Source: Candidatus Baldrarchaeum yapensis
GTDB taxonomy: Archaea > Asgardarchaeota > Baldrarchaeia > Baldrarchaeales > Baldrarchaeaceae
Length of the DNA stretch: 45,494 bases
Reading direction: 5' to 3'
Assembly (NCBI GenBank): GCA_016840465.1
Contig: JAEOSH010000014.1
Coordinates: 1-45,494 of the forward strand
Part shown: piece after piece, positions 675-30,531 of the stretch
Numbering within the stretch: the stretch's first letter is position 1
How the letters are laid out: the number at the start of each line of letters is the position of its first letter
Translations under genes and position numbers: made by a program
Notes under the pieces: generated by a model
Told to the model about the DNA's origin: nothing
Database searches by the model: none
Seen by the model: only the letters and a program-made list of their open reading frames with translations

Positions 675-2093
675 TTATACGTTCAGGTACGTGTATATCT
701 CCACTGGAGTCGTGTACATTTCTATTTTTCTGCACTCTTCCCTTTTCACTTCGATGTACGTTTCTAAGAGTTCCTTGTTCATGACGGGCTTCAGGAACTC
801 GTTATCGCACTCCAACTCGTCGAGCGCATCCCACAGGGTTCTGGGGAGTTCCTTTATTCCGAGCTGTCTTCGCTTAGATGCGGGCATCAGGTAGATGTTC
901 TCGTCCACGGGGTCTCCTGGATCTATCTCTTTCTTTATTCCATCCAGACCTGCGGCAAGTATTGCAGCGAATGCCAAGTACGGGTTCGTTGCAGGGTCTG
1001 GGGGTCTGTATTCAATCCTTTTGTCTCTGGGATCTCCCCTGTGGTACACGGGAACTCTCACTATTGCGCTTCTGTTACCTTTGCTCCATGCAATGTAAAC
1101 GGGAGCCTCGTACCCAGGTACCAGTCTCTTGTAGCTGTTAGTCGTGGGTGAAACTATTGCACTCAATGCCCGCGCGTGCTCCATCAATCCTCCGATGAAG
1201 TACCTTCCGAGTTGGCTCAACTCCGCATACCCGTCATTTGGGTCGTAGAACAGGTTTGCTGTCACGTTTCTATTCCACAAACTCACATGAGTGTGCATTC
1301 CACTTCCGTTATCTCCGTAGATGGGTTTCGGCATGAATGTAATGGTGTGATCGTACTTTTTCGCAATGTTCCATGCAACATACTTGAAAGTTACAACTCT
1401 ATCGGCCGTCTCGACAAGTCCCCCGTGCCTGAAGGTTATCTCCCCTTGCCCCGCAGTCGCAACCTCATGGTGGTAGGCTTCGATGGAGAATCCGAAGTGG
1501 TCCTCGAGGGTCTCCGCGATTTCTTTCCTTATTGTGAGGACTATGTCGAAGGGGGACGTTACGTGGTATCCGTGCTTGCAATCGATAACCCCGCCGTTGC
1601 AGCTCCATGGGGCCTCATCGCTCTCTATGATGTAGGACTGCTTGTATCGTGGGTCGGAGAGGTCGACTTTCACCCTCCTAAATATGAAGAACTCGATTTC
1701 GGGGCCCCAAAAGCTAATATATCCGTTGTTGAGGGCATACTCTTCTGCTTTTTCGGCGCATTGACGTGGATCCTTTTCGAACCTGCCCATACCATAGCTT
1801 CTGTAAACCTTACAAAGAAATCGCGCCGTTTTTCCTTTGCCATTGCTCTCCCAAGGAACTATTGCGAAAGTTTCCTCCACAGGCACCAGTACCATGTCGC
1901 TCTCGTGGATTTCCACGAACCCCACGACGCTACTTCCGTCAAGCTTCCCGATACCATCCTCAAAGACCTTCCTACTTATGTTTGATGAGGAAACGGTGAC
2001 CTGATGTAACCTTCCGATAAGATCCACGTATTGGAAGTGTATCCACCTGATCGCATTCTCGGATATCATTTTCAAAATTTGTTCAACTTCCAT
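675..2093 (-). CDS. glnA: Glutamine synthetase, type I
   Basis: 472 residues, normal for GSI. The enzyme makes glutamine from glutamate, ammonia and ATP as a cytoplasmic dodecamer. Signatures in order: the N-terminal beta-grasp with DGSSVVGF (52-59), metal ligands in PEIEFF (131-136), the ATP/metal region [11 protein letters not shown] (208-218), NGSGMHTH (262-269), [13 protein letters not shown] (319-331) and [14 protein letters not shown] (359-372). The NLYDLPPEE-like adenylylation segment of GSI-beta is replaced by ENIYLMP, so control by adenylylation is unlikely. The ATG is preceded by GGTGATGG, a good ribosome site, and by a TATA-like stretch at about 2133-2149. An inverted repeat lies further upstream. 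Some GS-like paralogues use other amines; the intact active-site blocks favour a true GS. Confidence 0.88.
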
Positions 2094-6785: not shown

Positions 6786-8576
6786 TCACTCGGCAATAAC
6801 ATTTATCCTTCTAAACTTCACGGTATCGATGAGCCCCTTGTCCGTGATCCTCAACTCCGGTAAAACGGAAAGTGCCAAGAGCGACATCGTCATGAACGGT
6901 GAAATTAACTCGCAACCCAGAGCCCGCCACGCCCTCTCCAGACCCTCCACCTCCTCACAAACCTCTTCCAGACTCTTATCTGACATGAGTCCGGCGATCG
7001 GCAATTCCACCAGTCCCAGAACCTCCTGATTTCGTACGGCGATCATTCCACCCCCCGCCTCTATCAACTTACGCGCGGCGAACGCCATGTCTTTCTCGTT
7101 CATGCCAACCACGAGGAGGTTGTGACTATCATGCGCAACCGTTGACGCAACAGCCCCCTCCTTAAAACCAAACCCTTTAACAAATCCAACACCGATATTC
7201 CCGGTCGCCCTGTGCCTCTCTATCACCGCAACCCTCGCAACGTCCTTCTCAACACTCGGCATGACAACGCCGTTGACCACGGGAAGCTCTTCTATCAGGT
7301 GCTTGGTGACGACCTTCCCCTCCACCACGCCTATGACGTGAACCTTCACCTTCTCCCTATCCGGAGAAGTCCTAACTAGGAAGTCCTCCGGCTCGGGAAC
7401 CCTTTTCACTCTTATCGTCTTCTTTGCATCCTCCGGGTACTCCATCTTCTCTATCTTGACAACTAACTTTCCATCCCTGGCAACGACCTCGCCGTCCGCA
7501 ATTACGGTATTCACCTTGACCTTCGTCAAACTGTCAAGTATCAGCATGTCCGCAAACCTTCCCGGTGCAATTCCCCCCACATCTCTCTCAACGCCGAAAT
7601 GCTCCGCAGTGTTCAGTGTCGCCATCTGGATCGCCCTCACCGGATCCACTCCCTCCTCTATCGCTCTCCTCACGACAAAGTCCATGTGACCCTCCCTAAC
7701 TATATCCTCCGGGTGCCTGTCATCCGTGACGAGAATAAGCCTCCTGCTGTCGATCTTGCCCTCCGTGTAGCACTTTATCACTTCCGCAAGATCCCTCCAC
7801 GCCGACCCCTCCCTTATCATTGCGTACATCCCCAACCTCACCCTCTGGATTCCGTCTATCTTCCTAGTAGACTCGTGACACGAAGTTATCCCAGCGGCGG
7901 CATACGCCGCAAGTTGCTCATCTAGGATCCCATCCGAGTGTCCCTCCACAACCTTGCCCGCCCTCAGCGTTGCATTTATCTCCCCGAAGACCTTCTCATC
8001 TCCTGCTAGAACCCCAGGGTAGTTCATCATCTCCCCCAGTGCAACAACCTCCTCCCACTTCATCATCTCCTCCACGTCCTTTGGCCCTATCTCCGCGCCC
8101 GCCGTTTCAAACTCCGGAAAAGATGCAGGGACGCATGAAGGCACACATACGAAGACCTTCAGCGGAACCCTCTTTGCCTCCTCTATCATGAGTTTTATGC
8201 CGTAAACCCCCAAAACGTTGGCTATCTCGTGAGGGTCTATGAAAACTCCGGTCGTCCCCCTCGGTAAAACCCCACGCGCAAACTCGGCCACCGTGACCAT
8301 GCTACTCTCTATGTGAACGTGACCATCCAGAAAACCGGGGCACAGATATCTCCCCTCCGCGTCTATCACCTTCGTTTTATCCCCGATCGTGTGGTCCGCT
8401 TTGCCAACTAACGCTATCCGATCGCCCTTCACTGCAACATCTATTCCCTCTAGGATCTCCCCACTGTAGACGTTAACAAGAGTCGCATTCTTGACAACAA
8501 GATCGGCTTTCTCTTTCCCGAGTGCGGTAAATACCAGTAGCCTGTTAACTTCCTCCAAGCGGCTCCGCCTTCGCAC
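6786..8576 (-). CDS. ade: Adenine deaminase
   Basis: About 596 residues, the usual length for the Ade amidohydrolase. It converts adenine to hypoxanthine in purine salvage. Metal ligands are visible in GHVHIESSM (HxH near residues 86-88), followed by the family hallmark PRGTTGVFIDPHEIANVLG, then VEGHSDG, TSCHEST and VTDDRHPED. The C-terminal block GNIGVGFVKGFGF with VAHDSHNLLVVG is also diagnostic. The frame extends to an ATG at 8627. I prefer the GTG at 8576, preceded by GGTGGT, because family members begin just before the LALG-EKADLVIKNA segment (here LGKEKADLVVKNA). It stands apart from the purine operon but feeds the same nucleotide pool. Confidence 0.93.
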   Translation of the reverse strand: MRRRSRLEEVNRLLVFTALGKEKADLVVKNATLVNVYSGEILEGIDVAVKGDRIALVGKADHTIGDKTKVIDAEGRYLCPGFLDGHVHIESSMVTVAEFARGVLPRGTTGVFIDPHEIANVLGVYGIKLMIEEAKRVPLKVFVCVPSCVPASFPEFETAGAEIGPKDVEEMMKWEEVVALGEMMNYPGVLAGDEKVFGEINATLRAGKVVEGHSDGILDEQLAAYAAAGITSCHESTRKIDGIQRVRLGMYAMIREGSAWRDLAEVIKCYTEGKIDSRRLILVTDDRHPEDIVREGHMDFVVRRAIEEGVDPVRAIQMATLNTAEHFGVERDVGGIAPGRFADMLILDSLTKVKVNTVIADGEVVARDGKLVVKIEKMEYPEDAKKTIRVKRVPEPEDFLVRTSPDREKVKVHVIGVVEGKVVTKHLIEELPVVNGVVMPSVEKDVARVAVIERHRATGNIGVGFVKGFGFKEGAVASTVAHDSHNLLVVGMNEKDMAFAARKLIEAGGGMIAVRNQEVLGLVELPIAGLMSDKSLEEVCEEVEGLERAWRALGCELISPFMTMSLLALSVLPELRITDKGLIDTVKFRRINVIAE

Positions 8577-8690
8577 ATTACCACCCCAATGCAGTAGAGG
8601 TGCACTAAAAGAGGCCGCATCATGCATAAGAATCCCCAGTAATACTAATTAACTGTTCCGACACCACCTCAACGCTTCCACACATATGTG

Positions 8691-17094: not shown

Positions 17095-18198
17095 CTAGGT
17101 AACCACGCTGCCGAGCGCCTCTTTCTCTATAGCCTCCCGTATCTCTATCGCTATCCTCCGCCCCATGCTGATCGGCTCACCAAAGTAAAACTTGCTGTAC
17201 TGACTGCCAACGCCCGCGTAGATGTTGGTGCCCCCACCGATCCGAAACGCCACGTCCACAACGTAGATCTTCAAATCGGAAGTAACTATCGATTGAAGGG
17301 TAAACGGACCAATTATCCCGGGAGGATACAACTCCTTAGCCGCCCTCACAAACGCATCCCCCATCTCGAAAACCTTCTGGAGTTGCGACTCCCTTATCGT
17401 CGCCGGCATGTGCCCTATCTCCACATTACGCACAACCACGTCCAAGTCCATCTGGATGAACGCTGGCAACCTGACGAGCCCGTGAACGTTCGTCTGCAAC
17501 CTCCTATCTATCCCGTGAAACTCAACATCGCCTCTCACAACCGAGTGGAAATAATTGAAGTTGAAATCGACACCCACCACAAACTCCTCTATCGACGCCC
17601 TCCTCAACTCCTCCTCTTCCAGTAAACCCCTCTCCATGAAGTCCCTCGCCTTCCTCCAGAAGTCCTTCGAATTCCTCGCAATGAAGAACGCCCTCTCCAC
17701 AGAACCGGCCGCCATGGCCTTCACGATGACCGGTCTGTCTATCTCATCGGGAGACTTGAAGGTCTTGGGCCTGAGAATTCCGGCAGCATCAAGTATCTTG
17801 TAGTAGTTGACTTCCCCGTACCTCTCCTCCGCCCTCAATAACTGACGAGACCCGAAAATCGGAACGTAGAACTCCTCCTCTATGCTCTCGTACCCGACGT
17901 ACACAGAAAAACTTCTGTTCGGAACGAAAATCGTGTTCAGCTTCCTCAACTTGTCCTGAACGTTCTCCCTTATAATGTCCCGGAACCTCTCCAAAACTAT
18001 GACCTCGTCCGCAAGCCTCCTAAACCTGAGGTACGGAAGCTCCCTCCCCTTCTGGCAAATAACAACAGTCTTGAAACCCTCGTCCTTCGCTCCGTCCAGA
18101 ACGTCGAGCGCCGAGTGGCTTCCCAGCACCCCTATGTGTATGTTCTCCCAATCGTATTCCTTCTCCACAAGGGCCGCCATCTCACGGGGGGAAATCAT
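17095..18198 (-). CDS. purP: PurP-family FAICAR synthetase paralogue 2, atypical ATP loop
   Basis: 367 residues. PurP is an ATP-grasp ligase that converts AICAR plus formate and ATP to FAICAR in archaea lacking PurH transformylase. The family pattern is clear: GSHSALDVLDGAKDEGFKT at the N-terminus, FVPNRSFSVYVG, VPIFGSRQLL, RVIVKAM-like strand (DRPVIVKAM), a FVVGVDFNFNYFHS segment, and PPGIIGPFTLQ. It is unusual in that the ATP-grasp glycine loop, HGAKGGRGYF in the sister gene, is here MAAGSVERAFF, losing most glycines. C-terminal FRIGGGTN is kept. This could be an inactive, differently used or partner subunit. The ATG follows GGTGG and lies 9 bp after the upstream paralogue's stop, so the two are one transcript. 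Confidence 0.85.
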   Translation of the reverse strand: MISPREMAALVEKEYDWENIHIGVLGSHSALDVLDGAKDEGFKTVVICQKGRELPYLRFRRLADEVIVLERFRDIIRENVQDKLRKLNTIFVPNRSFSVYVGYESIEEEFYVPIFGSRQLLRAEERYGEVNYYKILDAAGILRPKTFKSPDEIDRPVIVKAMAAGSVERAFFIARNSKDFWRKARDFMERGLLEEEELRRASIEEFVVGVDFNFNYFHSVVRGDVEFHGIDRRLQTNVHGLVRLPAFIQMDLDVVVRNVEIGHMPATIRESQLQKVFEMGDAFVRAAKELYPPGIIGPFTLQSIVTSDLKIYVVDVAFRIGGGTNIYAGVGSQYSKFYFGEPISMGRRIAIEIREAIEKEALGSVVT

Positions 18199-18207
18199 AA
18201 AACCACC

Positions 18208-19227
18208 TCACGTGAGCACCTTATCGAGCATCCCATGCTCCTCCGCCATCCTTATCTCGCGCGCAATCCTCCGGCCCATGCTCATCGGCTCATCAAAATA
18301 CAGCCAACTGTAGGGGGAACCGTTGATATAAAGGTTGGTGCCCGCAACTATCCTGCCTGAAAACTCAAAAATAACAATTTCGAGATCGCTCCGGCATACT
18401 CCCTCCAGACAGAAGGGACCAATAACGCCCGGCGGCACAAGTTCCTCTGCTGCCCTTACAAATCCTTCGCCGTACTCGAACACCTTTACGAGGAGGGACT
18501 CCCGAACGACAAGAGGTATGTTTCCGACAACCGTAAAGGTGGGCTCACTCAAACTATCGGCATACGGAACGGGCACCCTTCTCAGCCCATCCACATCACT
18601 CTCATACCTTATATCGCACCCTAAAAGCTCTAGGCGTTTCATAACAACCGAGTTAAAGTACTGAAAATACATGGGCGTGCCAATCACAAACTCCTGAATT
18701 ATGCACTCATCCGGCGAAATGCCAAGACTTTTGCACTTCGAAATAACCTCCTCCGGAGACCTCGCAAGAAAGTATCCTCGCCCACCTTTCGCCCCGTGCA
18801 TCTTAACAATTACGAGCCGGTCCACCTCCTCCGGAGACCTAAAAACCCTGGGCACCTTCACACCAGATCGCTCCAGCATTCTCATCTTGAGAAACTGATC
18901 CGCCTCCCAAATCATAAGCCGCCTGTTACCGAAGATCGGAACATCCAACCTCTCAAGACCTTCAACACCAATGTACTCAACAAAACTGCCATGCGGAACT
19001 ATAACTGCGCCCTCCTCGTTTAACCTCCTGATGGCCTCATCGCTGCAAACGTCCCCCATCCCATCAATCAACACAATATCGTCAATGAAGTTCAAAAATC
19101 GAGAATACAGCGAAACTCTATCCCTAGGACACAAAACTATGGTCTTAAAGCCCTCACTCTTCGCACCCCTCAGTATCTGCAATGCACTGTGGCTCGCAAT
19201 CGTCGCAATACTCCGCACTTCCCGCAT
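18208..19227 (-). CDS. purP: PurP FAICAR synthetase, canonical paralogue 1
   Basis: 339 residues, close to the family length. It catalyses formate-dependent formylation of AICAR, the step before IMP. The N-terminal ASHSALQILRGAKSEGFKTI carries the substrate-binding segment. The ATP-grasp loop HGAKGGRGYFLA is intact, followed by IIQEFVIGTPMYFQYFNSVV, the substrate-binding VDGLRRVPVPY, PPGVIGPFCLEGVC and the metal-binding EFSGRIVAGTN. It is the first gene of a minus-strand pair divergent from the purine operon. The ATG is preceded by AAGGTG and a TATA-like TTTAAATTT about 35 bp upstream (19261-19270). No IMP cyclohydrolase gene (purO) is nearby. Confidence 0.92.
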   Translation of the reverse strand: MREVRSIATIASHSALQILRGAKSEGFKTIVLCPRDRVSLYSRFLNFIDDIVLIDGMGDVCSDEAIRRLNEEGAVIVPHGSFVEYIGVEGLERLDVPIFGNRRLMIWEADQFLKMRMLERSGVKVPRVFRSPEEVDRLVIVKMHGAKGGRGYFLARSPEEVISKCKSLGISPDECIIQEFVIGTPMYFQYFNSVVMKRLELLGCDIRYESDVDGLRRVPVPYADSLSEPTFTVVGNIPLVVRESLLVKVFEYGEGFVRAAEELVPPGVIGPFCLEGVCRSDLEIVIFEFSGRIVAGTNLYINGSPYSWLYFDEPMSMGRRIAREIRMAEEHGMLDKVLT

Positions 19228-19759: not shown

Positions 19760-20518
19760 GTGCGCCCGAAAGTATTACAGTTGATAACTGAAGGCAAGAC
19801 CAAAAAGGTGTGGGAAACCGAAAATCCCGATCTTGTCATCTTGGAATTCAAAGACGATATCACTGCGTTTGATGGAGCAAAGCATGATGTCATCAGCGGA
19901 AAAGGCGCAATAAACGCCGCAATTTCAGCCAAAATTTTCGAACATCTGAACAAAAACGGAATTCCAACACATTTTGTCGAGTTTGTGGCACCCCGCTACC
20001 ACGTCGTAAGACGACTAGAAATGATACCACTCGAGGTGGTATGCCGAAACATAGCCACCGGGCACCTCGTGAAAAGACTACCCATGATAAAGGACGGAAC
20101 GCGCCTCGAGTTCCCGGTACTGGAGTTCTACCTCAAAGATGACAAACTCCACGACCCCCTCATAAACGACCACCACGTCGTCCTGCTAAAGCTGGCATCT
20201 TGGAAGGAAATAGAAGAAATGAAAAAGATAACACTCCGGGTAAATGAAGTGTTGCGCACGTTCTTCGAGGAAAGAGGGCTTATTCTCGTAGACTTCAAAC
20301 TCGAGTTCGGAAGAGACCGCAATGGAAAACTCCTCGTGGGCGACGAACTGAACGGAGATGCAATGCGGATCTGGGACATGTACACCGGGAAGATACTCGA
20401 TAAGGACGTGTACCGGAAGGGATACCCCCTCGACGAAGTGCTCGTGCGATACCGCGAATTTTACAGGAGAGTGGTGGGCGCAGACTTTCCGGGGGAGGAA
20501 GTATGCCTCGCTACATAG
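19760..20518 (+). CDS. purC: SAICAR synthetase
   Basis: 252 residues, full length. It joins CAIR and aspartate with ATP to give SAICAR. The N-terminal LITEGKTKKVWETENPDLVILEFKDDITAFDGAKHDVISGKGAINAA is the family nucleotide-binding signature, followed by EMIPLEVVCRNIATGHLVKR, the second signature, and LVDFKLEFGRDRNGKLLVGDELNGDAMRIWD at the catalytic/metal site. It is the first gene of the operon and starts with GTG at 19760, with AGGGTG upstream. The next gene overlaps by 16 bp. Confidence 0.95.
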   Translation: MRPKVLQLITEGKTKKVWETENPDLVILEFKDDITAFDGAKHDVISGKGAINAAISAKIFEHLNKNGIPTHFVEFVAPRYHVVRRLEMIPLEVVCRNIATGHLVKRLPMIKDGTRLEFPVLEFYLKDDKLHDPLINDHHVVLLKLASWKEIEEMKKITLRVNEVLRTFFEERGLILVDFKLEFGRDRNGKLLVGDELNGDAMRIWDMYTGKILDKDVYRKGYPLDEVLVRYREFYRRVVGADFPGEEVCLAT

Positions 20519-20769
20519 TCGAGGTCCTCATTGAAAACAAGAAGACAATACGGGATCCCGAGGGCGAAACCATCTGCCGGGAACTCATCAATAAGGGAGG
20601 ATACGACAGCATAAAGTCCGTAAGGGTCGGCAAACTCCTGAGGATGGAAGTCGAGGGATCCAGCGAGGAGGAAGTGAAGGAACTCGTGACCAGAATGTGC
20701 AACGACCTCAGAATCTACAACCCCGTCGTCCACTCCTATAGGGTGGAAATCAGAGGGATCACACGGTGA
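20503..20769 (+). CDS. purS: FGAM synthetase small subunit PurS
   Basis: 88 residues, normal for PurS. It is a structural subunit that holds PurQ and PurL together and helps channel ammonia. It starts MPRYIVEVLIENKK and has the family patterns DPEGETICRELINKGGYDSIKSVRVGKLLRMEVEG and VTRMCNDLRIYNPVVHSYRVEI. It overlaps purC and, by 4 bp (GTGA), purQ. Confidence 0.92.
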   Translation: MPRYIVEVLIENKKTIRDPEGETICRELINKGGYDSIKSVRVGKLLRMEVEGSSEEEVKELVTRMCNDLRIYNPVVHSYRVEIRGITR

Positions 20770-21470
20770 GAGTCGCCGTTATCCGGTTTCCCGGATCAAA
20801 CTGCGACCTGGACACAGTATTCGTCCTCAGGAAGGTAATAGGCGTGAAAGCCGACCTCGTGTGGCACAAGAACTTCAAAGGAGACTACGACGCAGTGATA
20901 CTGCCAGGCGGTTTCTCGTACGGGGATTACCTGCGTGCGGGAATCATCGCGGCCCACAGCCCCGCAATGAAGTACGTCAAGGAAATGGCGCGTGAGGGAC
21001 TACCGGTTCTGGGCATCTGCAATGGATTCCAAATACTGATAGAGGCGGGACTTCTCCCGGGAGCGCTGATAAGAAACACGACACTGAAGTTCATATGCAA
21101 ATGGGTTTTCCTGAAGGTCAAAACCACGCGCACCGCCTTCTCCAACCTCATGAAAAGAGAGCAGGTTCTGAAGATGCCGATCGCGCACAACGAGGGGAGG
21201 TACTTCATAGACGAGAAGGGGCTGAGGGAACTCATGGAGAACGACCAGATAGTCTTCACATACGTTGATGGGGAGGGCAACGAGACCCCGAACGCGAACC
21301 CCAACGGTTCCGTTGCAAACATCGCCGGGGTCTGCAATCTAGAGGGAAACGTCGTAGGGCTGATGCCACACCCCGAAAGGGCCTCGGAAGCCATCCTGAG
21401 CCCCTACGGAAGCGACGACGGAAAACTTCTGTTCCTTTCCATGAAAAACTTTCTCGAGAGGTGGATGTGA
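20766..21470 (+). CDS. purQ: FGAM synthetase glutaminase subunit PurQ
   Basis: 234 residues. It is a class I glutamine amidotransferase that frees ammonia from glutamine for PurL. The nucleophile elbow is GICNGFQIL with Cys85, and the catalytic pair is in LMPHPE (His202, Glu204). It begins with GTG as RVAVIRFPGSNCDLDT. It is intact, unlike the glutaminase domain in the second purF of this operon. The stop codon overlaps the purL ATG. Confidence 0.95.
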   Translation: MRVAVIRFPGSNCDLDTVFVLRKVIGVKADLVWHKNFKGDYDAVILPGGFSYGDYLRAGIIAAHSPAMKYVKEMAREGLPVLGICNGFQILIEAGLLPGALIRNTTLKFICKWVFLKVKTTRTAFSNLMKREQVLKMPIAHNEGRYFIDEKGLRELMENDQIVFTYVDGEGNETPNANPNGSVANIAGVCNLEGNVVGLMPHPERASEAILSPYGSDDGKLLFLSMKNFLERWM

Positions 21471-23710
21471 TGATAGTAGAGCGGCCCGACATGCAGGTTA
21501 AGGTCAACCTCACAAGGGAGGAGCTGGAAAAGGCAAAAGAGATGCTCGGGCGGGAACCCAACATTGTCGAACTCGGAATGATAGACATCATGTGGAGCGA
21601 ACACTGCTCCTACAAGTCCTCCCGGGAAGTCCTGAAAATCCTGCCTAGGGAGGGGGAACACGTAATCATAGGGCCGGGACAGGACGCCGGCGTCGTGGAT
21701 ATAGGAAACGGGCTCGCGGTAGTTTTCAAGATAGAATCTCACAACCACCCCTCTGCGGTGGACCCCTACAACGGAGCCGCAACCGGAGTTGGAGGAATAA
21801 TAAGGGACATCCTCTGCATGGGCGCCCGCCCCATCGCCCTCGTCGACTCCCTCAGGTTCGGATTCCCCTCCAGCCCCCACGCCAGGTGGCTGTTCAGATA
21901 CGTCGTTAAGGGAATCGCAGATTACGGAAACTGCACCGGGATTCCAACGGTAGCAGGTCAGGTGGAGTTTGACCCCTCCTTCGAGAGAAATTGCCTTGTC
22001 AACGTCGGCTGCGTGGGAATTGCAAGGAAAGACAGAATAATGCCAAGCGTTGCCTCAAACCCTGGGGACGTCCTCGTCCTCGTCGGGGGCTCCACCGGAA
22101 GAGATGGAATCCACGGCGTCACCTTCGCATCCAAAACCCTCAGCGAAAAATCCGAGGAGGAGAGGTCCTCCGTACAAATAGGAGATCCCTTCATGAAAAA
22201 ACTGGTGATCGAGGCGACGCTGGAGGCCGTGGAGACGGGATATGTAAGGGGACTGAAGGATCTGGGAGGCGGAGGACTGACGTGCGCAACTTCCGAGATG
22301 GCCGCAAAGGGCGGAACCGGGGTGGAAATAGAACTTTCTAAGGTCCACCTCAGAGAGGAGGGAATGACCCCCTACGAGATAATGCTGAGCGAGTCGCAGG
22401 AGCGCATGCTCTTCGTTGTAGATCCAAAAGGTCTCGATAAAGTACTGTCGGTGTTCGAAAAGTACGAGATTCCGTACTCAATAATAGGAAGAGTCACCGA
22501 CACCAGAGAGGTCGTCGTCAAACTGAACGGAAAAGTGGTGGCGCGGGTTCCGGCAAAGCTACTTGCCGAAGCCCCCCTTGCAAAGCGCACATCTAAAAAG
22601 CCAGCATACGTCGAGAAGTTGCGTGACATACCACCTCCGCCAATGCCGGAAAACCTCGAAGAAACCCTTCCTCAACTCCTCTCATCACCTAACATTGCAA
22701 GTAAGGAGTGGGTATACCAGCAGTACGACCACGAGGTCGGAATAAGAACCGTAGTAAAGCCGGGACAGGCAGATGCAGCCGTCCTCAGAATCATAGAGGA
22801 AGATGGAGGAAACAGGGGAATCGCAATAAAGGCTGACTGCAACTCGAGGCATATGTATCTGGATCCGTTCAACGGCGCCGCCGGTGCTCTGGCAGAATGC
22901 TGCAGGAATATAGTTGCAGTTGGAGGAAAACCACTGGCCTTTGTCGACTGCGCAAACTTTGGCAACCCCGAAAAACCCGAAATATTCTGGCAGTTCGAAA
23001 TGGCAATCAAGGGTCTCGCATACATGGCCCGAGGTCTGGGAATACCATGCGTGGGCGGAAATGTCAGCTTCTACAATGAAGATGAAACCACAGGGAGGGC
23101 GGTGAAACCGAGCACCGAGGTCCTAGCAATCGGGCTGGTTGAGGACCTCAAACACGTGACAACAATGGCATTCAAATCTGCGGGAGACGTAATCGTCGTG
23201 GTGGGTAAGACCTTCAGAGAGGTGGGCGGATCGGAATACTACTACATAGTCCACGGGATAGAGGGAGGAAAAGTACCCGCTGCCGATCCGAATAGGGAGA
23301 AGTCCTCCATGAACGCCGTTTTGGAGGGAATAAGGCGCGGATACGTCACCGCTGCTCATGACATTTCGAGAGGGGGATTTGCGGTCGCGCTCGCAGAAAT
23401 GGCAATCCAAGGAGGAAGAGGAGCGGAGGTCTTCTTGGACAATATGCCGCGGGAACCCATGCGCATCGACGAACTCCTCTACTCGGAGAGCAACGCAAGA
23501 TTCATCATCACGGTCGAGGAAAAAAACCTCGATAACTTCATATCACTATGCCGCAACACCGGCGCACCCTTCGGGATAATTGGAAGGGTTTCGAGAAGTA
23601 ACAGGCTCATTCTCAGGTACGAGAGCCTTGTTCTCGAGTATGATGTCCACCACCTGGAGAAAGCTTGGAAGATGCCAATATGGGAGTACATGGAGGGGCT
23701 GCGCTCGTGA
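21470..23710 (+). CDS. purL: FGAM synthetase large subunit PurL
   Basis: 746 residues, the small archaeal/Gram-positive form that works with PurS and PurQ. It converts FGAR, ATP and ammonia to FGAM. Marks are WSEHCSYKSS (42-51), the catalytic ESHNHPS (89-95), DPYNGAATGVGGIIRD, then the second half with DCNSRHMYLDPFNGAAGALAECCRNI and GGNVSFYNE. The ATG at 21470 sits in TGATG with the purQ stop and follows GAGAGGTGG, so I prefer it to the in-frame GTG at 21461. No frame damage is seen. Confidence 0.95.
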   Translation: MIVERPDMQVKVNLTREELEKAKEMLGREPNIVELGMIDIMWSEHCSYKSSREVLKILPREGEHVIIGPGQDAGVVDIGNGLAVVFKIESHNHPSAVDPYNGAATGVGGIIRDILCMGARPIALVDSLRFGFPSSPHARWLFRYVVKGIADYGNCTGIPTVAGQVEFDPSFERNCLVNVGCVGIARKDRIMPSVASNPGDVLVLVGGSTGRDGIHGVTFASKTLSEKSEEERSSVQIGDPFMKKLVIEATLEAVETGYVRGLKDLGGGGLTCATSEMAAKGGTGVEIELSKVHLREEGMTPYEIMLSESQERMLFVVDPKGLDKVLSVFEKYEIPYSIIGRVTDTREVVVKLNGKVVARVPAKLLAEAPLAKRTSKKPAYVEKLRDIPPPPMPENLEETLPQLLSSPNIASKEWVYQQYDHEVGIRTVVKPGQADAAVLRIIEEDGGNRGIAIKADCNSRHMYLDPFNGAAGALAECCRNIVAVGGKPLAFVDCANFGNPEKPEIFWQFEMAIKGLAYMARGLGIPCVGGNVSFYNEDETTGRAVKPSTEVLAIGLVEDLKHVTTMAFKSAGDVIVVVGKTFREVGGSEYYYIVHGIEGGKVPAADPNREKSSMNAVLEGIRRGYVTAAHDISRGGFAVALAEMAIQGGRGAEVFLDNMPREPMRIDELLYSESNARFIITVEEKNLDNFISLCRNTGAPFGIIGRVSRSNRLILRYESLVLEYDVHHLEKAWKMPIWEYMEGLRS

Positions 23711-25140
23711 TTTCTAAATGCATGGAGAAATGCGGCGTCATAGGAGTATATTCTAGGAACGCCGGAGACTCTCAGTGTGCCAGGAGAATATATGAGGGGC
23801 TCGTCGCACTGCAACATAGGGGGCAGGAGAGCGCGGGAATCTACATGTTTAGCGGAGATGGGAGGATAGCGGGGATCAAGGGATCGGGGCTCGTCACGGA
23901 GGTATTCAGCGCCAAGAGCCTAGAGTTGCTAAAGGGATCAGTGGGAATAGGACACGTCAGATATAGCACAACGGGTACCGGAACCACCGATGAAATCCAA
24001 CCGTTCTTCGTGAGAGAGGGAAGGTTCTCATTCGCCCTCGCGTTCAACGGGACGATTACGAACTTTGCAGAAGTGCGGAAGTGGCTCAGAAATCAAGGAT
24101 TTTACTTCAAAACCAACACGGACACCGAGGTGCTTGCAAAAACAATAGCGTTCTATCTCTCCGAAGAGGGCTATGACTACTTCGCGGCACTCGAAAGAAC
24201 CATGGAGGCGCTGGACGGGGCTTTCTCGGTAGTGCTTATCAACGAGAAGGGAGAGATGCTGGGGATGAGAGATCCCAGGGGATTCAAACCTCTGTGCCTC
24301 GGAGCAACATCGGATCCAGAAATGTACATCTTAGCTTCCGAGAGCGTCGCAATAGACGCCCTGCATGGTTTCCTCCTCGGCGACGTCTACCCAGGTGAGA
24401 TTATCAGAATATCGGACGGCGTTGTCGAACGAAAAGTTGCGTGCAAGTCAGAAAAACACTCCCACTGCATGTTCGAGTACGTCTACTTTGCAAGGGAAGA
24501 CTCCATAATCGAGGGGATCCATGTATACAATGTCAGGTGGAGACTAGGAGCTATACTCTCAGAACTGTATCCCACCGACGCAGACTACGTAATACCCGTT
24601 CCGGACACGGGAATAGTCCCCGCCATAGGATTCTCCCAAGCCTCAGGAATTCCGCTGGCTTACGGCCTCGTGAGGAACAAGTACGTTGGGCGCACGTTCA
24701 TAATGCCACAGCAACAGATGAGGGAGGGAGCGGTCCGGGTAAAACTCGGGGTCATAAGATCAGTGGTTTCGGGGAAAAGGATGGTGGTCGTCGATGACAG
24801 CATCGTCAGGGGAACCACCTCCAAGTTCATCGTAGAACTCCTGAAAAGCTTCAACGCGGCAAAGGTGCACCTCAGAATCTGCTGCCCGCCCATAGTCTCC
24901 CCGTGCTACATGGGAATAGACTTCCCATCCCATAAGGAACTCATAGCATCCAAGATGGACGTGGAAGGTGTCAGGAGGTTCATAGGAGCCGATTCCCTTG
25001 GCTACATGACAATAGACGGGCTTGTCCGCGGAATCGGACTTCCAAAGGGAGAGTTGTGTTTGGCGTGCCTCACCGGGGAATACCCGCTAAAGCGCCCGGA
25101 GGATGTCGACAAGCTGGAGGAGATATTCAAGAGGGGGTGA
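23707..25140 (+). CDS. purF: Amidophosphoribosyltransferase, canonical
   Basis: 477 residues. It is the committed step, PRPP plus glutamine to phosphoribosylamine. It starts from the GTG at 23707 in the GTGA overlap with purL, with GGAGGGG 8 bp upstream. This yields an 8-residue leader before Cys9 in EKCGVIGVYS, the Ntn nucleophile freed by propeptide removal. The other glutaminase residues are visible: HVRYSTTG (Arg), LAFNGTITN (Asn-Gly) and NTDTEV (Asp). The PRPP loop is VVVDDSIVRGTT. Four cysteines in HCMFEY, SPCYMG and LCLAC fit the Bacillus-type 4Fe-4S site, which senses oxygen. ATG 23722 is an alternative start but lacks a ribosome site. Confidence 0.93.
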   Translation: MISKCMEKCGVIGVYSRNAGDSQCARRIYEGLVALQHRGQESAGIYMFSGDGRIAGIKGSGLVTEVFSAKSLELLKGSVGIGHVRYSTTGTGTTDEIQPFFVREGRFSFALAFNGTITNFAEVRKWLRNQGFYFKTNTDTEVLAKTIAFYLSEEGYDYFAALERTMEALDGAFSVVLINEKGEMLGMRDPRGFKPLCLGATSDPEMYILASESVAIDALHGFLLGDVYPGEIIRISDGVVERKVACKSEKHSHCMFEYVYFAREDSIIEGIHVYNVRWRLGAILSELYPTDADYVIPVPDTGIVPAIGFSQASGIPLAYGLVRNKYVGRTFIMPQQQMREGAVRVKLGVIRSVVSGKRMVVVDDSIVRGTTSKFIVELLKSFNAAKVHLRICCPPIVSPCYMGIDFPSHKELIASKMDVEGVRRFIGADSLGYMTIDGLVRGIGLPKGELCLACLTGEYPLKRPEDVDKLEEIFKRG

Positions 25141-25144
25141 TGTT

Positions 25145-26479
25145 TTGAGCGGGATTTTCGGAATTTTCGCGTTTGATGAGATATGGCGCGTTTCCAAATT
25201 CGTATATTACGGACTCCTGGCCCTCCAAACAAGAGGCCAGGAGGTTTGTGGAATAGCGTGTGGAGGATCGGACGGAATAGTAACATGTGCAAAGAGGGGC
25301 TACGTCGATCAATCCTTCAAGGAGAATGAGTTAGAAGGAATAGGCGGATGGTACGGCATCGGCTACGTGGGCGCGGACCCCCAAAATGTACAACCCGTGA
25401 CGGTCCGCCATAACGGCATCACCGTTTCCGTCTGCTATTCCGGGAGAATATTTAACCTGCGGGAGCTCACGAAAAGGTACAATCTCCCGGAAAAGGAAAA
25501 CGAAAGCATACTGTTTGCGAAGATTCTGGCATCGGAAGTTAGAAAGAGTGGTCCCATGAACGCCGCCGCGCTTCTGATGGAAGAACTTGAGGGTGTGTAC
25601 ACGGTGCTGGCAATAACAGACCAAAAGGAGATGGTTGCCTTCAGAGATTCACATGGCGTGAAGCCGCTGACAATCGGGAGTTATGGATTCGATTATGGAG
25701 CAATAGCATCCGAAAGCGCAGGACTAGAAGTCATAGGCGCCGACTACAAGTCCGACATCATGCCAGGCGAGATATACCTCTTTACAAGCTACAGCATAGA
25801 AAGAGAGCAGGTGAGAGCTCCACAACCGAAATACTGCGCATTCGAGTACGTGTACTACGCCCGCCCCGACTCCATAATAAACGAGAAGTCGGTGTACGAT
25901 GTAAGGGTGAAAATAGGCGAGTACCTCGCAAAGGAGAGCCCCGTTGACGTGGATGTTGTCGTAGGTGTGCCTGAAACGGCAATACCCTTCGCAATGGCGT
26001 ATTCAAATGCCACCGGAACACCCATAGCCATGGGATTCATGAGAACGGGGCGCCACACAAGAACCGCAATAAAGCCCACGTACTTCGAGAGACTCGTGGG
26101 GGTGCAGCTGAAGCTTAACCCCATAAAGAGCGTGTTCTCCGGCAAAAGGGTCCTGATAATCGACGACAGCGTCGTGAGGGGAACCACAATGAAGAACGTA
26201 ATACACCTTCTCAGAAACAAGATGGGGGCCAAGGAGGTGCATGTGAGGATCGGTAGCCCCCGACTCGTGAACCCCTGCCCCTACGGAACCGAGGTCCCCA
26301 CCCGCGACGAACTGATAGCCGCAAACCTGAGCGAGGAGGAGGTCGCAATAGTCACCGGCGCGGACTCCTTCAAGTGGCTCTCGATAGACTCCCTCATCAA
26401 AGCGATCGGATTTCCACGCGAGTACCTCTGCCTTAGGTGTTTTGGAGGTGATGGGGATGAAGGTCCTACTCATAGGTAG
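25145..26479 (+). CDS. PurF paralogue with degenerate glutaminase site
   Basis: 444 residues. It starts from the TTG at 25145, 5 bp after the purF stop, with GAGGGGGTGAT just upstream. It aligns along its full length with the preceding PurF, but the glutaminase residues are lost. The nucleophile Cys is Ser2 (MSGIFGIFAF); HVRYSTTG is YVGADPQN; AFNGTI is CYSGRI; and the Asp segment NTDTEV is ENESIL. The phosphoribosyltransferase PRPP motif LIIDDSVVRGTT and the four Fe-S-type cysteines (YCAFEY, NPCPYG, LCLRC) are kept. It may use free or delivered ammonia, act on another amine, or regulate PurF. Ser as an Ntn nucleophile is known in other families, but the missing Arg and Asn argue against glutaminase activity here. 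Confidence 0.88.
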   Translation: MSGIFGIFAFDEIWRVSKFVYYGLLALQTRGQEVCGIACGGSDGIVTCAKRGYVDQSFKENELEGIGGWYGIGYVGADPQNVQPVTVRHNGITVSVCYSGRIFNLRELTKRYNLPEKENESILFAKILASEVRKSGPMNAAALLMEELEGVYTVLAITDQKEMVAFRDSHGVKPLTIGSYGFDYGAIASESAGLEVIGADYKSDIMPGEIYLFTSYSIEREQVRAPQPKYCAFEYVYYARPDSIINEKSVYDVRVKIGEYLAKESPVDVDVVVGVPETAIPFAMAYSNATGTPIAMGFMRTGRHTRTAIKPTYFERLVGVQLKLNPIKSVFSGKRVLIIDDSVVRGTTMKNVIHLLRNKMGAKEVHVRIGSPRLVNPCPYGTEVPTRDELIAANLSEEEVAIVTGADSFKWLSIDSLIKAIGFPREYLCLRCFGGDGDEGPTHR

Positions 26480-27932
26480 TGGATCACGTGAGCACGCAAT
26501 TGCGGACGCCCTTGCCAGAAGCGTGCATGAGCCGAAGATTTTCGCAGTAATGTCAAATAGAAATCCCGGCATTATCAGGATCTGTGAGAGCACGGGAGGA
26601 GAGTACTTCATCGGAAAGATCACAGACCCCCAATTTGTCAGAGAAATAGGAGAAAGAGTATCCCCCGACTTCGCGTTCATCGGACCGGAAGAACCCCAGT
26701 TCCATGGAGTATCCGATGCACTTGAGGAGGCGGGCATTCCGTGTGTCGGCGCAAGGGAGAAACTTAGTGAGATAGAGAGGTCGAAGGCATTCATGAGGAG
26801 GCTCATGTGGAAGTACAGGATACCCGGAAGGCTAAGGTTCAAAGCATTCAAGAACGTGGAGGAGGCGATCGCCTACATCAAGGAGTACGCCGAAAGCATC
26901 GCACTAAAGCCGGCAAGGCAGGCGGGAGGCAAGGGAGTCAAGGTGATCGCGGACATACAGGCGTACCTCAGGAGGGAGAGGACCGAGGTCAAGGAGAAGC
27001 ATGCAAAGAAGATCTACGAGGAGCACATGAAACCGTACGACGACATAGAGGACAAAATACTGATAGAGGAGAAGGTCGACGGGCCGGAGTACACCCTCCA
27101 GTGCTTCACCGATGGAAGGACGGTGCTCCCCCTGCCCCTGGTCCAAGACAATAAGAACGCCTTCGAGATGGACATAGGGCCGGAAACCGGCGGGATGGGG
27201 TCGATATCGGGGAAGGGCTTTCTACTACCATTCATTGAGGAGGATGAGTTCCGAGAGTCAGTGAAAATAGTGGAATCCGTGGTGAGGGCCCTAGAGAAGG
27301 AGTTCGGCATGAGATATCACGGCGTGATCTCCGGTCAGATGATGCTCACCGCCCTCTGGGGACCCACGATCATAGAATTCTATTCCCGGTTCGGAGACCC
27401 CGAGGGCGTGAACGTCCTCCCGATACTCAAAACCGACCTCGTCGAAATATCCGAGGCAGTAATCTCGGAGAAACTCCACAAGATGAAGATAGAGGTGGAG
27501 GAGAAGGCAACCGTCGTCAAGGCAATAGCCCCTCAGGGATACCCCAACAGGAGAGATCTCGCAAAGGGGCACCCGATAGCCGTGGACGAAAGGGCAATAG
27601 AGGAGCAGGGAGCAAGGGTCTTCTACGGCTCCGTGAACGTCGATAACGGAAGGTTGATAACTGGTGGCTCACGCGCCGTGGAGATATTCGCATGCGCCGA
27701 AACAATAGAGGAGGCGAGCAAGATCGTGGATAAATGCGTTAAGTACGTTAGATGCCTGGACGGATGGGGGCTCTTCTACAGAAGTGACATAGGCTCGAGC
27801 ACCCTCCTGCACAGGAGAATGGAACTCGCAGAGCTGGTGAGGAACGTCTACCGCTACAGGAGGTCCAAGGGCATCATCGGGATCAAGATAGACTGGATTC
27901 CCGGAGTTGGAAAAATAGTGTACGAGAGCTGA
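26457..27932 (+). CDS. purD: Phosphoribosylamine-glycine ligase (GAR synthetase)
   Basis: 491 residues, the longer archaeal form. It makes GAR from phosphoribosylamine, glycine and ATP. It begins MKVLLIGSGSREHAIADALA, then has the ATP-grasp elements KPARQAGGKGVKV, DGPEYTLQCFTDG, ETGGMGSISG and EFYSRFGDPEGVNVLP. The ATG at 26457 follows GGAGGTGAT by a few bases and lies inside the end of the previous gene; the in-frame TTG at 26442 is less likely. The region between 175 and 210 (RRERTEVKEKHAKKIYEEHMKPYDD) is an insertion seen in archaeal PurD. Confidence 0.93.
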   Translation: MKVLLIGSGSREHAIADALARSVHEPKIFAVMSNRNPGIIRICESTGGEYFIGKITDPQFVREIGERVSPDFAFIGPEEPQFHGVSDALEEAGIPCVGAREKLSEIERSKAFMRRLMWKYRIPGRLRFKAFKNVEEAIAYIKEYAESIALKPARQAGGKGVKVIADIQAYLRRERTEVKEKHAKKIYEEHMKPYDDIEDKILIEEKVDGPEYTLQCFTDGRTVLPLPLVQDNKNAFEMDIGPETGGMGSISGKGFLLPFIEEDEFRESVKIVESVVRALEKEFGMRYHGVISGQMMLTALWGPTIIEFYSRFGDPEGVNVLPILKTDLVEISEAVISEKLHKMKIEVEEKATVVKAIAPQGYPNRRDLAKGHPIAVDERAIEEQGARVFYGSVNVDNGRLITGGSRAVEIFACAETIEEASKIVDKCVKYVRCLDGWGLFYRSDIGSSTLLHRRMELAELVRNVYRYRRSKGIIGIKIDWIPGVGKIVYES

Positions 27933-27943
27933 GGTGCGTGGCA

Positions 27944-29026
27944 ATGGCTAAGGATAGGGTTAGGGTTGCAGCGATCCAGATATACATGCACGGGGTCCCG
28001 AGCGAGGAGAGGTGGAGAAAGCACATCCACTGGATGAATGAGGCGGTGAGGCTCGGTGCGGACCTCATATGCACGACGGAGTTTTTCCTGGGAGGCGAAA
28101 CTTACTGGAGAAAGGAGAGAATAGAGTTCTTCAGGAACTTCTGCAAAGAGAATGGGGTGTACGTCGCGGCGCACTCCTACCAGAGGGTCAAGTTGGATGG
28201 AGACAAGCGGGTGACCAAGAGCAGAATAATATTCTTCGCCCCCGGTGGCGAAATCATCGGAACCTTCGACAAAGTGCATCTCTACCCCACCGATGTCCAC
28301 TTGGCACGCGCGACGCAGGGTACCGACTTCCCGGTGTTCGACACCAAAATTGGAAAAATAGGGTTTGGGGTCTGCGAAGACCTCATGATCCCGGAACACA
28401 TACGATGCCTCAGGTCAAGAGGCGCCGAAATAGTGATAATCCCGAGCAGAATGCCGGGGAACTATCTCGTCTGCTGGAAGGATGTCGCAGTTGTGAGGGC
28501 AATAGAGAGCTGCGTCTACATAGTGACAATAGGGGAGGCGGGAATGCACGCGGTGGGGACCCTCGCGGTGAGCCCGCGCCTCGATAATCCAATAGTTGCC
28601 GAAATGGGTCCCCACGAGGGCGTGATGATCGCAGACCTGGATCTCGCATGGCTCAGGTCCGAGCGCAATCGGAAACCAGTACTCGATCAACTCAGGAAAA
28701 AGGAGGATGTCGAGGAACTTTCCGTGAAGACGAAGGTCCACGACTTCGTTTTTAGGCTTGAGGACTGGCAACCTGAGCTGTACATTCCGGTGTACGCGGC
28801 GGCAAGCATCGACAAGAGGGTCAGGATGTTTTCGGAGAAGGGGATATGGGTCGAAAGGGAGGTTGTGGAGAGGTTGCTGGACACCTACAGCCGACTGATG
28901 ACTGTGGTAGCCCAAATAGAGGAGATCGCTGACGAGAACCTCAAGGTGCGGCTGCCATCGATCGCGGTAATAAAAAGCGATTTTGAATTCTTAAAACGCC
29001 TCTTAGAGGTGCTGAAGGGTGAGTGA
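27944..29026 (+). CDS. Nitrilase-superfamily amidohydrolase within the purine operon
   Basis: 360 residues, longer than the typical 260-300 because of a C-terminal extension of about 90 residues. The carbon-nitrogen hydrolase triad is visible as Glu46 (TTEFFLGG), Lys110 ([10 protein letters not shown]) and Cys144 ([12 protein letters not shown]). These enzymes hydrolyse amides, nitriles or carbamoyl groups, and some are glutaminases for partner enzymes, as in glutamine-dependent NAD synthetase. The substrate is unknown. It starts at ATG 27944 with GAGGTG 7 bp before, 11 bp after purD, and overlaps purE by 8 bp, so it is clearly a member of the operon. The C-terminal segment ([39 protein letters not shown] region) is helical and not part of the core fold. 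Confidence 0.85.
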
Positions 29027-29465
29027 GGAGATAGAAGTCGCAATAGTAATGGGAAGTAAAAGTGATGAGCACGTTGCCAAAAAGGCGGCTGACGCCCTTT
29101 CTGAGTTGGGGATAAAGTACGAAGTTAAGATCCTTTCCGCCCACAGAAACCCCGATGAACTGCGTGAATACATCAGAAAATGCAAAGCTAAGGTTTTCAT
29201 CGCAATAGCCGGGCTTTCGGCACACCTTCCCGGATTCATAGCATCACACACCGATAAACCGGTGATAGGAGTCCCCGTTAACGTACAACTCGGCGGACTC
29301 GATGCCCTTCTTTCCATGGTCCAGATGCCCCCGGGTGTGCCAGTAGCGACCGTGGGAATAGACAATGGCAGAAACGCCGCACTTCTCGCCGCAAGAATAC
29401 TCGCATTGTTCGATGAAAGGATAAAGAGAAAGTTGGAGGAGGCGAAAAGTGAGAGGAGAGGGTAG
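29019..29465 (+). CDS. purE: N5-carboxyaminoimidazole ribonucleotide mutase PurE
   Basis: 148 residues. It supplies CAIR for PurC. It has the nucleotide motif VMGSKSD (10-16), SAHRNPDE (40-47) and the active-site His69 in [16 protein letters not shown], with [25 protein letters not shown] as the typical C-terminal block. It starts with GTG in GGGTGAGTGAGGAG. No purK was seen, so it may act as the class II AIR carboxylase or a distant purK exists; the sequence does not decide. It overlaps purM by 17 bp. Confidence 0.92.
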
Positions 29466-30531
29466 CGGGTGGACGTACGCAAAAGCGGGTGTCGATGAAG
29501 GGAAGGTTTCCAAAGCCTTATCCGGAGTTTGGAAGATGCTCATAGAGACCTTTGATTTTAGAAAGGGAAGAAAAGCTCACCCCTTGAACGTGATAGGGCA
29601 CTACGCTGGACTATTAGATGTGGGAACGGACGTCCTGCTGGCATTGCACGTAGACGGAGTGGGCTCAAAGGTTCTAGTGGCGCAAATGCTGAACAAATAC
29701 GACACGGTGGGTATAGACCTCGTGGCGATGCACGCAAACGACCTCATATCGATAGGGGCCGAGCCGGTGGCACTCGTAGATTACCTAGCTGTTAAGGAAC
29801 CCGACGAGCAACTCATCCAAGAAGTCATGAAGGGAGTCGTGGAAGGGGCAAAGATCGCGAGAATGTGCGTGATAGGAGGAGAAACGGCGGTATTGCCAGA
29901 CGTAATCACCGGATACGAGAGCGGCAAGCCATTTGACCTTTCGGGGATGAGCCTGGGCGTCGTTGAGAGGGATAAGGTCATACTGGGAGATAAGGTCGAG
30001 GTGGGAGACGCCGTGATAGGGCTCGCGAGCAGTGGGATCCACTCCAACGGTCTCACACTTGCAAGGAGGGTTCTCTTCGAGGAGGCGAAAATACCACCCT
30101 CCGCGTACATTGAGGAGTTGAGGAAAACACTAGGGGAGGAGTTACTCACTCCCACGAGGATATACGTTGACGAGGTGCTGAGCATTTTAGAAAGCGGAAT
30201 AGAAGTTCACGGGCTGGCGCACATAACGGGTGGCGCGTTCACAAAGCTGAAGAGGATCTCGAGAGGAAGGGTCAGGATAAGGCTGGATAAGATGCCGGAG
30301 CCTCAGCCGATATTTAAGATGATACAGCGCCTGGGAAATGTCGAAACGGAGGAAATGTACAGGACGTTCAATATGGGAATCGGATTCGTAATAGTGGCGC
30401 CGCGGCGGGAGATTGAGAACATATCATCGGTACTGGAGGAAAAGAGAACTACATACTACGTCCTTGGCCGAGTTGAAAGCGGATCCGACATCGTCATAAG
30501 AGCGTATGATGGAACCCTCATTGTTTTCTGA
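29449..30531 (+). CDS. purM: Phosphoribosylformylglycinamidine cyclo-ligase (AIR synthetase)
   Basis: 360 residues, full length. It cyclises FGAM to AIR with ATP. Marks are the N-terminal [12 protein letters not shown], then [47 protein letters not shown], and [18 protein letters not shown], with [16 protein letters not shown] and the [10 protein letters not shown] end. It is the last gene of the operon and begins with GTG inside purE. The inverted repeat at 30561-30587 is a likely terminator. Confidence 0.94.

Follow-up and report, generated by a model that had tools for sequence, protein, structure and literature searches.

A second PurF without a glutaminase site in an Asgard archaeon and its pairing with an extended PurD

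The purine operon and its second PurF

The window (the whole stretch analysed, 45,494 nucleotides of a contig of Candidatus Baldrarchaeum yapensis) carries a purine operon of the order purC-S-Q-L-F-F'-D-(nitrilase-like)-E-M. Its genes and the features discussed below are the following:

19760..23710, plus strand: purC, purS, purQ and purL, the upstream operon genes
23722..25140, plus strand: purF, canonical amidophosphoribosyltransferase with Cys1, HVRYST, FNG and DDSIVRGTT
25145..26479, plus strand: purF', full-length, apparently glutaminase-dead PurF paralogue with a TTG start
25148..25150, plus strand: Ser codon of purF' at the Cys1 position (after removal of the start residue)
25370..25372, plus strand: Gly codon of purF' at the position of the glutaminase Arg (HVRYST to YVGADP)
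25439..25441, plus strand: Ser codon of purF' at the position of the glutaminase Asn (FNG to YSG)
25835..25837, plus strand: putative Fe-S ligand Cys (equivalent of B. subtilis C236), invariant in the alignment
26033..26125, plus strand: PurF'-specific flexible loop GFMRTGRHTRTAIKPTYFERLVGVQLKLNPI, a conserved stretch specific to the family
26162..26188, plus strand: PRPP loop DDSVVRGTT, kept in purF'
26276..26278, plus strand: putative Fe-S ligand Cys (equivalent of B. subtilis C382), invariant in the alignment
26429..26440, plus strand: C-terminal CxxC, putative Fe-S ligands according to the purF' alignment
26457..27932, plus strand: extended purD (491 aa), overlapping the end of purF'; 376 bits against TIGR00877
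26961..27029, plus strand: helix 169-191 of the PurD ATP-grasp domain, longer than in ordinary PurD (predicted structure)
27798..27929, plus strand: C-terminal extension of PurD (helix 448-470 and a hairpin), past the end of all PDB PurD matches
29019..30531, plus strand: purE and purM, the downstream operon genes

The product of purF scores 457 bits against TIGR01134 (cut-off 350) and begins with MEKCGV...; translation might alternatively start at GTG 23707. The TTG start of purF' lies 4 nt 3' of the purF stop codon and is closely preceded by the ribosome-binding-like sequence GGGGGTGAT. The in-frame stretch from ATG 25103 to this TTG, STSWRRYSRGGDV, is open and contains no Cys nucleophile, and a mis-called start is thereby ruled out.

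The two PurF proteins align end to end, as the earlier note had stated (36% identity over 450 columns, E 2e-78). The replacements that it described in the second protein are all seen: Cys1 has become Ser, HVRYSTTG has become YVGADPQN with loss of the Arg, FNG has become YSG with loss of the Asn, and the Asp127 segment is absent, so that nothing remains of the TIGR01134-type glutaminase set (Cys1, Arg, Asn, Asp). The motif IDDSVVRGTT and all four Fe-S-type cysteines of the B. subtilis pattern, which were said to be kept, are indeed present as sequence motifs. The structure of PurF' predicted by AlphaFold2 is a confident PurF fold (pLDDT 92) and matches PurF structures with TM values, by query length, of 0.90 (6LBP) and 0.86 (1AO0). 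PurF' thus resembles canonical PurF (TIGR01134; B. subtilis 1GPH/1AO0, E. coli 1ECB/1ECF, A. thaliana 6LBP) in its full-length fold, its PRPP loop and its four Fe-S cysteines, but differs from it in the missing glutaminase residues, in the flexible loop and in a score of 317.7 bits, below the family cut-off of 350.

The neighbouring PurD has the whole fold of GAR synthetase (TIGR00877; 2YW2, 2IP4, 1GSO) with TM up to 0.92 (by target length). It differs from every PDB PurD matched by the extra length of the ATP-grasp helix and by about 40 extra C-terminal residues, among which the hairpin following helix 448-470 is predicted with lower confidence.

The gene between purD and purE (27938-29026) belongs to the nitrilase (CN hydrolase) superfamily. 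No similar gene was found in the other loci fetched; as it occurs only in the window genome among these loci, it was rejected as a supplier of ammonia in general. At 17095-18198 and 18208-19227 (minus strand) two PurP-like genes (formate-AICAR ligase) lie next to each other and score under the equivalog cut-offs; duplicated PurP is a known archaeal puzzle. Genes for glutamine synthetase (675-2093, minus strand) and adenine deaminase (6786-8627, minus strand) are located in the window as well.

The PurF' family and the constraint on its sites

A second cluster of PurF proteins, designated PurF', was described beside PurF in every Crenarchaeon studied by Brown et al. (2011, Biol Direct 6:63, PMC3261824). 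According to the passages of that paper on PurF', these proteins have no N-terminal Cys and are encoded near purF and other purine genes, with one of each per genome; an ammonia-dependent activity was suggested for them and left as a proposal. The window protein likewise lacks the glutaminase nucleophile, falls into a distinct cluster and adjoins purF. A tree of 82 PurF proteins places the 33 PurF' copies, those of Sulfolobales and of the window included, together on one side of a single branch (support 100). By its sequence the window gene is therefore a member of the known PurF' family and is new as an Asgard member, the published set being crenarchaeal in those passages. The tandem arrangement noted earlier is real, but it does not stem from a recent local duplication, as the second copy belongs to one ancient clade.

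The gene was found in 14 Asgard genomes including that of the window (Jordarchaeia, Njordarchaeota, Sifarchaeum and Wukongarchaeum are among them) in the order purF-purF'-purD, with purL 5' of purF wherever the contig extends that far; a fifteenth Asgard genome has the same tandem PurF gene pair. When the family-specific loop was used to scan 84,980 species genomes, the matches listed included Bathyarchaeota, Nezhaarchaeota, Nitrososphaeria, Brockarchaeota, Methanomethylicia, Desulfurococcales, Sulfolobales, Theionarchaea and Methanofastidiosia. Overall purF' is conserved in at least about 80 loci. Where the contig leaves room, it comes directly after purF in 69 of 77 loci, and purD is the very next gene in 71 of 75.

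Selection on the two proteins was compared by site entropy in the same 70 genomes having both genes. The glutaminase site is almost invariant in PurF and dispersed in PurF' (0.01 and 1.84 bits, respectively). The opposite holds for the PPi loop (0.57 in PurF' vs 1.13 in PurF), the flexible loop (0.84 vs 1.82) and the PRPP loop (0.29 vs 0.41). Mean pairwise identity of the phosphoribosyltransferase half is 62% in PurF' and 49% in PurF, and that of the other half is about equal (39% and 38%). The phosphoribosyltransferase half is thus retained, as had been proposed, and on these measures its site is under stronger selection in PurF' than in PurF itself. The glutaminase, its site being destroyed family-wide, is most probably inactivated.

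The earlier expectation that the Ser/Gly/Ser states would be conserved in relatives did not hold; what is conserved is the loss itself. Among 81 aligned PurF' proteins position 1 varies (Ala, Pro, Thr, Ser, Cys, Gly or Val), which rules out Ser as a conserved substitute nucleophile, and the position of the glutaminase Asn is occupied by Asp in 61. Cys1 is kept in nine of the 81, all from the Jordarchaeia group, and is absent from the other lineages. These nine proteins (loci L037, L078, L079, L081-L083, L087, L094 and L095) retain Cys1 and YNG and have lost the glutaminase Arg, which distinguishes them from the crenarchaeal PurF' as characterized in the passages cited above; their state is probably an intermediate one in glutaminase loss. 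Since the losses are common to relatives, they are neither chance nor sequencing error.

Within the flexible loop three residues are replaced throughout the family (L303F, R307G and F313A; the numbers are those of B. subtilis in the alignment used), and the less divergent members have GVQLKLN almost without exception. The Arg of the PRPP loop is Thr or Ser in Sulfolobales and in the more divergent crenarchaeal PurF', and the C-terminal CxxC persists in the divergent crenarchaeal copies checked. Such a PRPP loop indicates that PRPP chemistry may differ in some crenarchaea; loss of the glutaminase with retention of the phosphoribosyltransferase site is general, and the exact chemistry may vary by lineage.

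Pairing of PurF' with extended PurD

PurD encoded in the PurF' loci has about 475-510 residues, with the longer ATP-grasp helix and about 40 extra C-terminal residues, while Asgard loci without PurF' encode an ordinary PurD. The co-occurrence was counted in 523 genomes of three archaeal phyla (Asgard 224, Thermoproteota 200, Methanobacteriota 99). PurF' accompanies 88 of the 89 extended PurDs, the remaining one being cut by a contig end, and was found with none of the 277 ordinary ones (in Thermoproteota mostly at a strict threshold).

In Asgard archaea the two PurD classes are well separated by score (668-1101 bits for extended, 327 bits or less for ordinary); all 11 extended PurDs occur in PurF' genomes, and 134 ordinary ones occur without PurF'. 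Methanobacteriota show the same picture: six of six extended PurDs with PurF' and 78 of 78 ordinary ones without it, the same six genomes being involved, one of them split between two contigs. Thermoproteota contain 72 extended PurDs, 71 of them with PurF', and 65 ordinary ones with no strong PurF' match. Every one of the 47 genomes with a strong PurF' match has the extended PurD. Among the other 25 extended cases, 24 have a second PurF-like gene, and those fetched score as PurF'; in the last one, undecidable, the contig end cuts the locus and no PurF was found. A loose search of ten controls (ordinary PurD or a PurD fragment) returned zero or one PurF-like match each, the remaining ordinary-PurD genomes of this phylum having been searched at the strict threshold.

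The pairing recurs along the PurF tree. There are at least six well-supported changes of PurF' state, and PurD type agrees in six of six (p 0.03); on the best PurF tree all 12 changes are matched by PurD type, the trees behind these contrasts being quick searches. The co-occurrence may reflect shared vertical history, only six contrasts being well supported. The genomes G325 and G367 retain the pairing even though their purF, purF' and purD, on one contig, are separated by more than 250 kb. When Asgard archaea with and without PurF' are compared, the similarity of purL, purQ and purF is about unchanged, whereas the identity of PurD jumps from 61-71% to 37-40% with PurF' status. This pattern, together with the scattered genes of G325 and G367, disfavours transfer of the whole operon as the cause of the pairing.

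Distances between PurF' proteins correlate with those between PurDs (0.87), and the partial correlation given PurF is 0.78, with none of 2000 permutations as high. The corresponding value for PurF and PurD given PurF' is 0.03. With PurL, PurQ, PurE or PurM as the control the PurF'-PurD value is 0.72-0.81 and stays the highest, and within one PurL type it is 0.62. PurF' divergence thus tracks PurD better than PurF, PurL, PurQ, PurE or PurM do, on identity distances, whose correlation would also rise with faithful vertical inheritance of the two genes. The strict pairing points to PurD as a partner of PurF'. A link to PurD does not form part of the passages on PurF' in PMC3261824, and the pairing appears to be unreported in the open-access literature searched; the same literature yielded no later functional work on PurF'.

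The composition of PurF leans to thermophily (IVYWREL 0.436 vs 0.409, p 1e-4, phylogeny uncontrolled). As many thermophiles are not known to carry PurF', thermophily was set aside as the driver.

Possible roles of PurF'

Phosphoribosylamine (PRA) is very short-lived, and its route to PurD has been a question since the 1990s. As presented in PMC3261824, PurF is considered to deliver PRA to PurD by transient contact, and the Aquifex pair of PurF and PurD coupled too poorly in vitro, so that another factor may be needed. A glutaminase-dead PurF paired only with a special PurD is a concrete candidate partner for this step. We consider the chances about even that PurF, PurF' and PurD form a unit which passes on the labile PRA. 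Canonical PurF would hydrolyse glutamine and produce PRA, PurF' would bind PRPP or PRA in its conserved site, and PurF' together with the extra elements of PurD would hand the short-lived product to PurD. The more specific proposal, in which PurF' docks on the extended PurD as a dedicated relay subunit and PRA goes via PurF' rather than from PurF to PurD directly, is tentative; it would imply a channelling unit not described before and present in many archaea. Most sampled Methanobacteriota manage with PurF and an ordinary PurD, so that such a unit is not needed in general.

The reading of 2011, a free-standing ammonia-dependent PRPP aminotransferase making PRA from free NH3, agrees with the PRPP and PPi loops being intact in most lineages, and Cys1 mutants of E. 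coli PurF are reported as active with ammonia in the part of PMC3261824 dealing with this question. This reading is nevertheless doubtful: throughout the family the flexible loop has other residues at positions that PurF conserves, a PurF with an intact glutaminase is present as well in nearly all cases, and a special PurD would not be expected from ammonia use alone. As an added activity it is compatible with the PurF-PurF'-PurD unit. The tandem, apparently co-transcribed layout and the retained fold with its predicted nucleotide-binding site could suggest a regulatory pseudo-subunit of PurF, analogous to HisZ with short HisG, whose role would be the sensing of PRPP or nucleotides. This is unlikely, as the swap of PurD would have no explanation and the divergence of PurF' follows PurD, not PurF. 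The earlier description of the protein as simply ammonia-using or regulatory therefore leaves the strict pairing with a special PurD unaccounted for; PurF' may nonetheless use ammonia or form a hetero-oligomer.

A recent duplicate decaying at random, or a mis-called N-terminus, would fit the missing glutaminase site of the window copy, but is extremely improbable: the gene is kept in the relatives as one old clade, the relatives share the losses, the phosphoribosyltransferase half is more constrained than in PurF, and no Cys is hidden upstream. Random decay can be ruled out on these grounds. A full division of labour, with the partner PurF losing its phosphoribosyltransferase site, is likewise unsupported by the partner motifs, as the loops of the partner vary in TACK lineages but its PRPP loop is largely intact. 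The strict pairing, the supported contrasts and the divergence tracking PurD favour the PRA-passing unit over a purely regulatory subunit or a free-standing ammonia-using enzyme. It offers a functional hypothesis for a family which is present in such common organisms as the relatives of Sulfolobus and which has had no explanation since 2011; the family now reaches into the Asgard archaea.

Other variants of PurF were observed in Asgard genomes. A second, separate glutaminase-dead paralogue (MGGLFGV..., EDSIVRGTQ; L060 4304-5701, plus strand, also in L061, L063, L069, L071 and L072) adjoins purF in several genomes without PurF'; it scores 195 bits against TIGR01134 and falls outside the PurF' clade. 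An additional PurF is encoded in the purSQL cluster of L065 (8883-10340), L066 (2006-3454), L067 (8645-10105) and L068 (5995-7410); in L065-L067 it has a shortened flexible loop and an altered HVRYST motif (HVCYGT, HVCSRG and HVAYGS).
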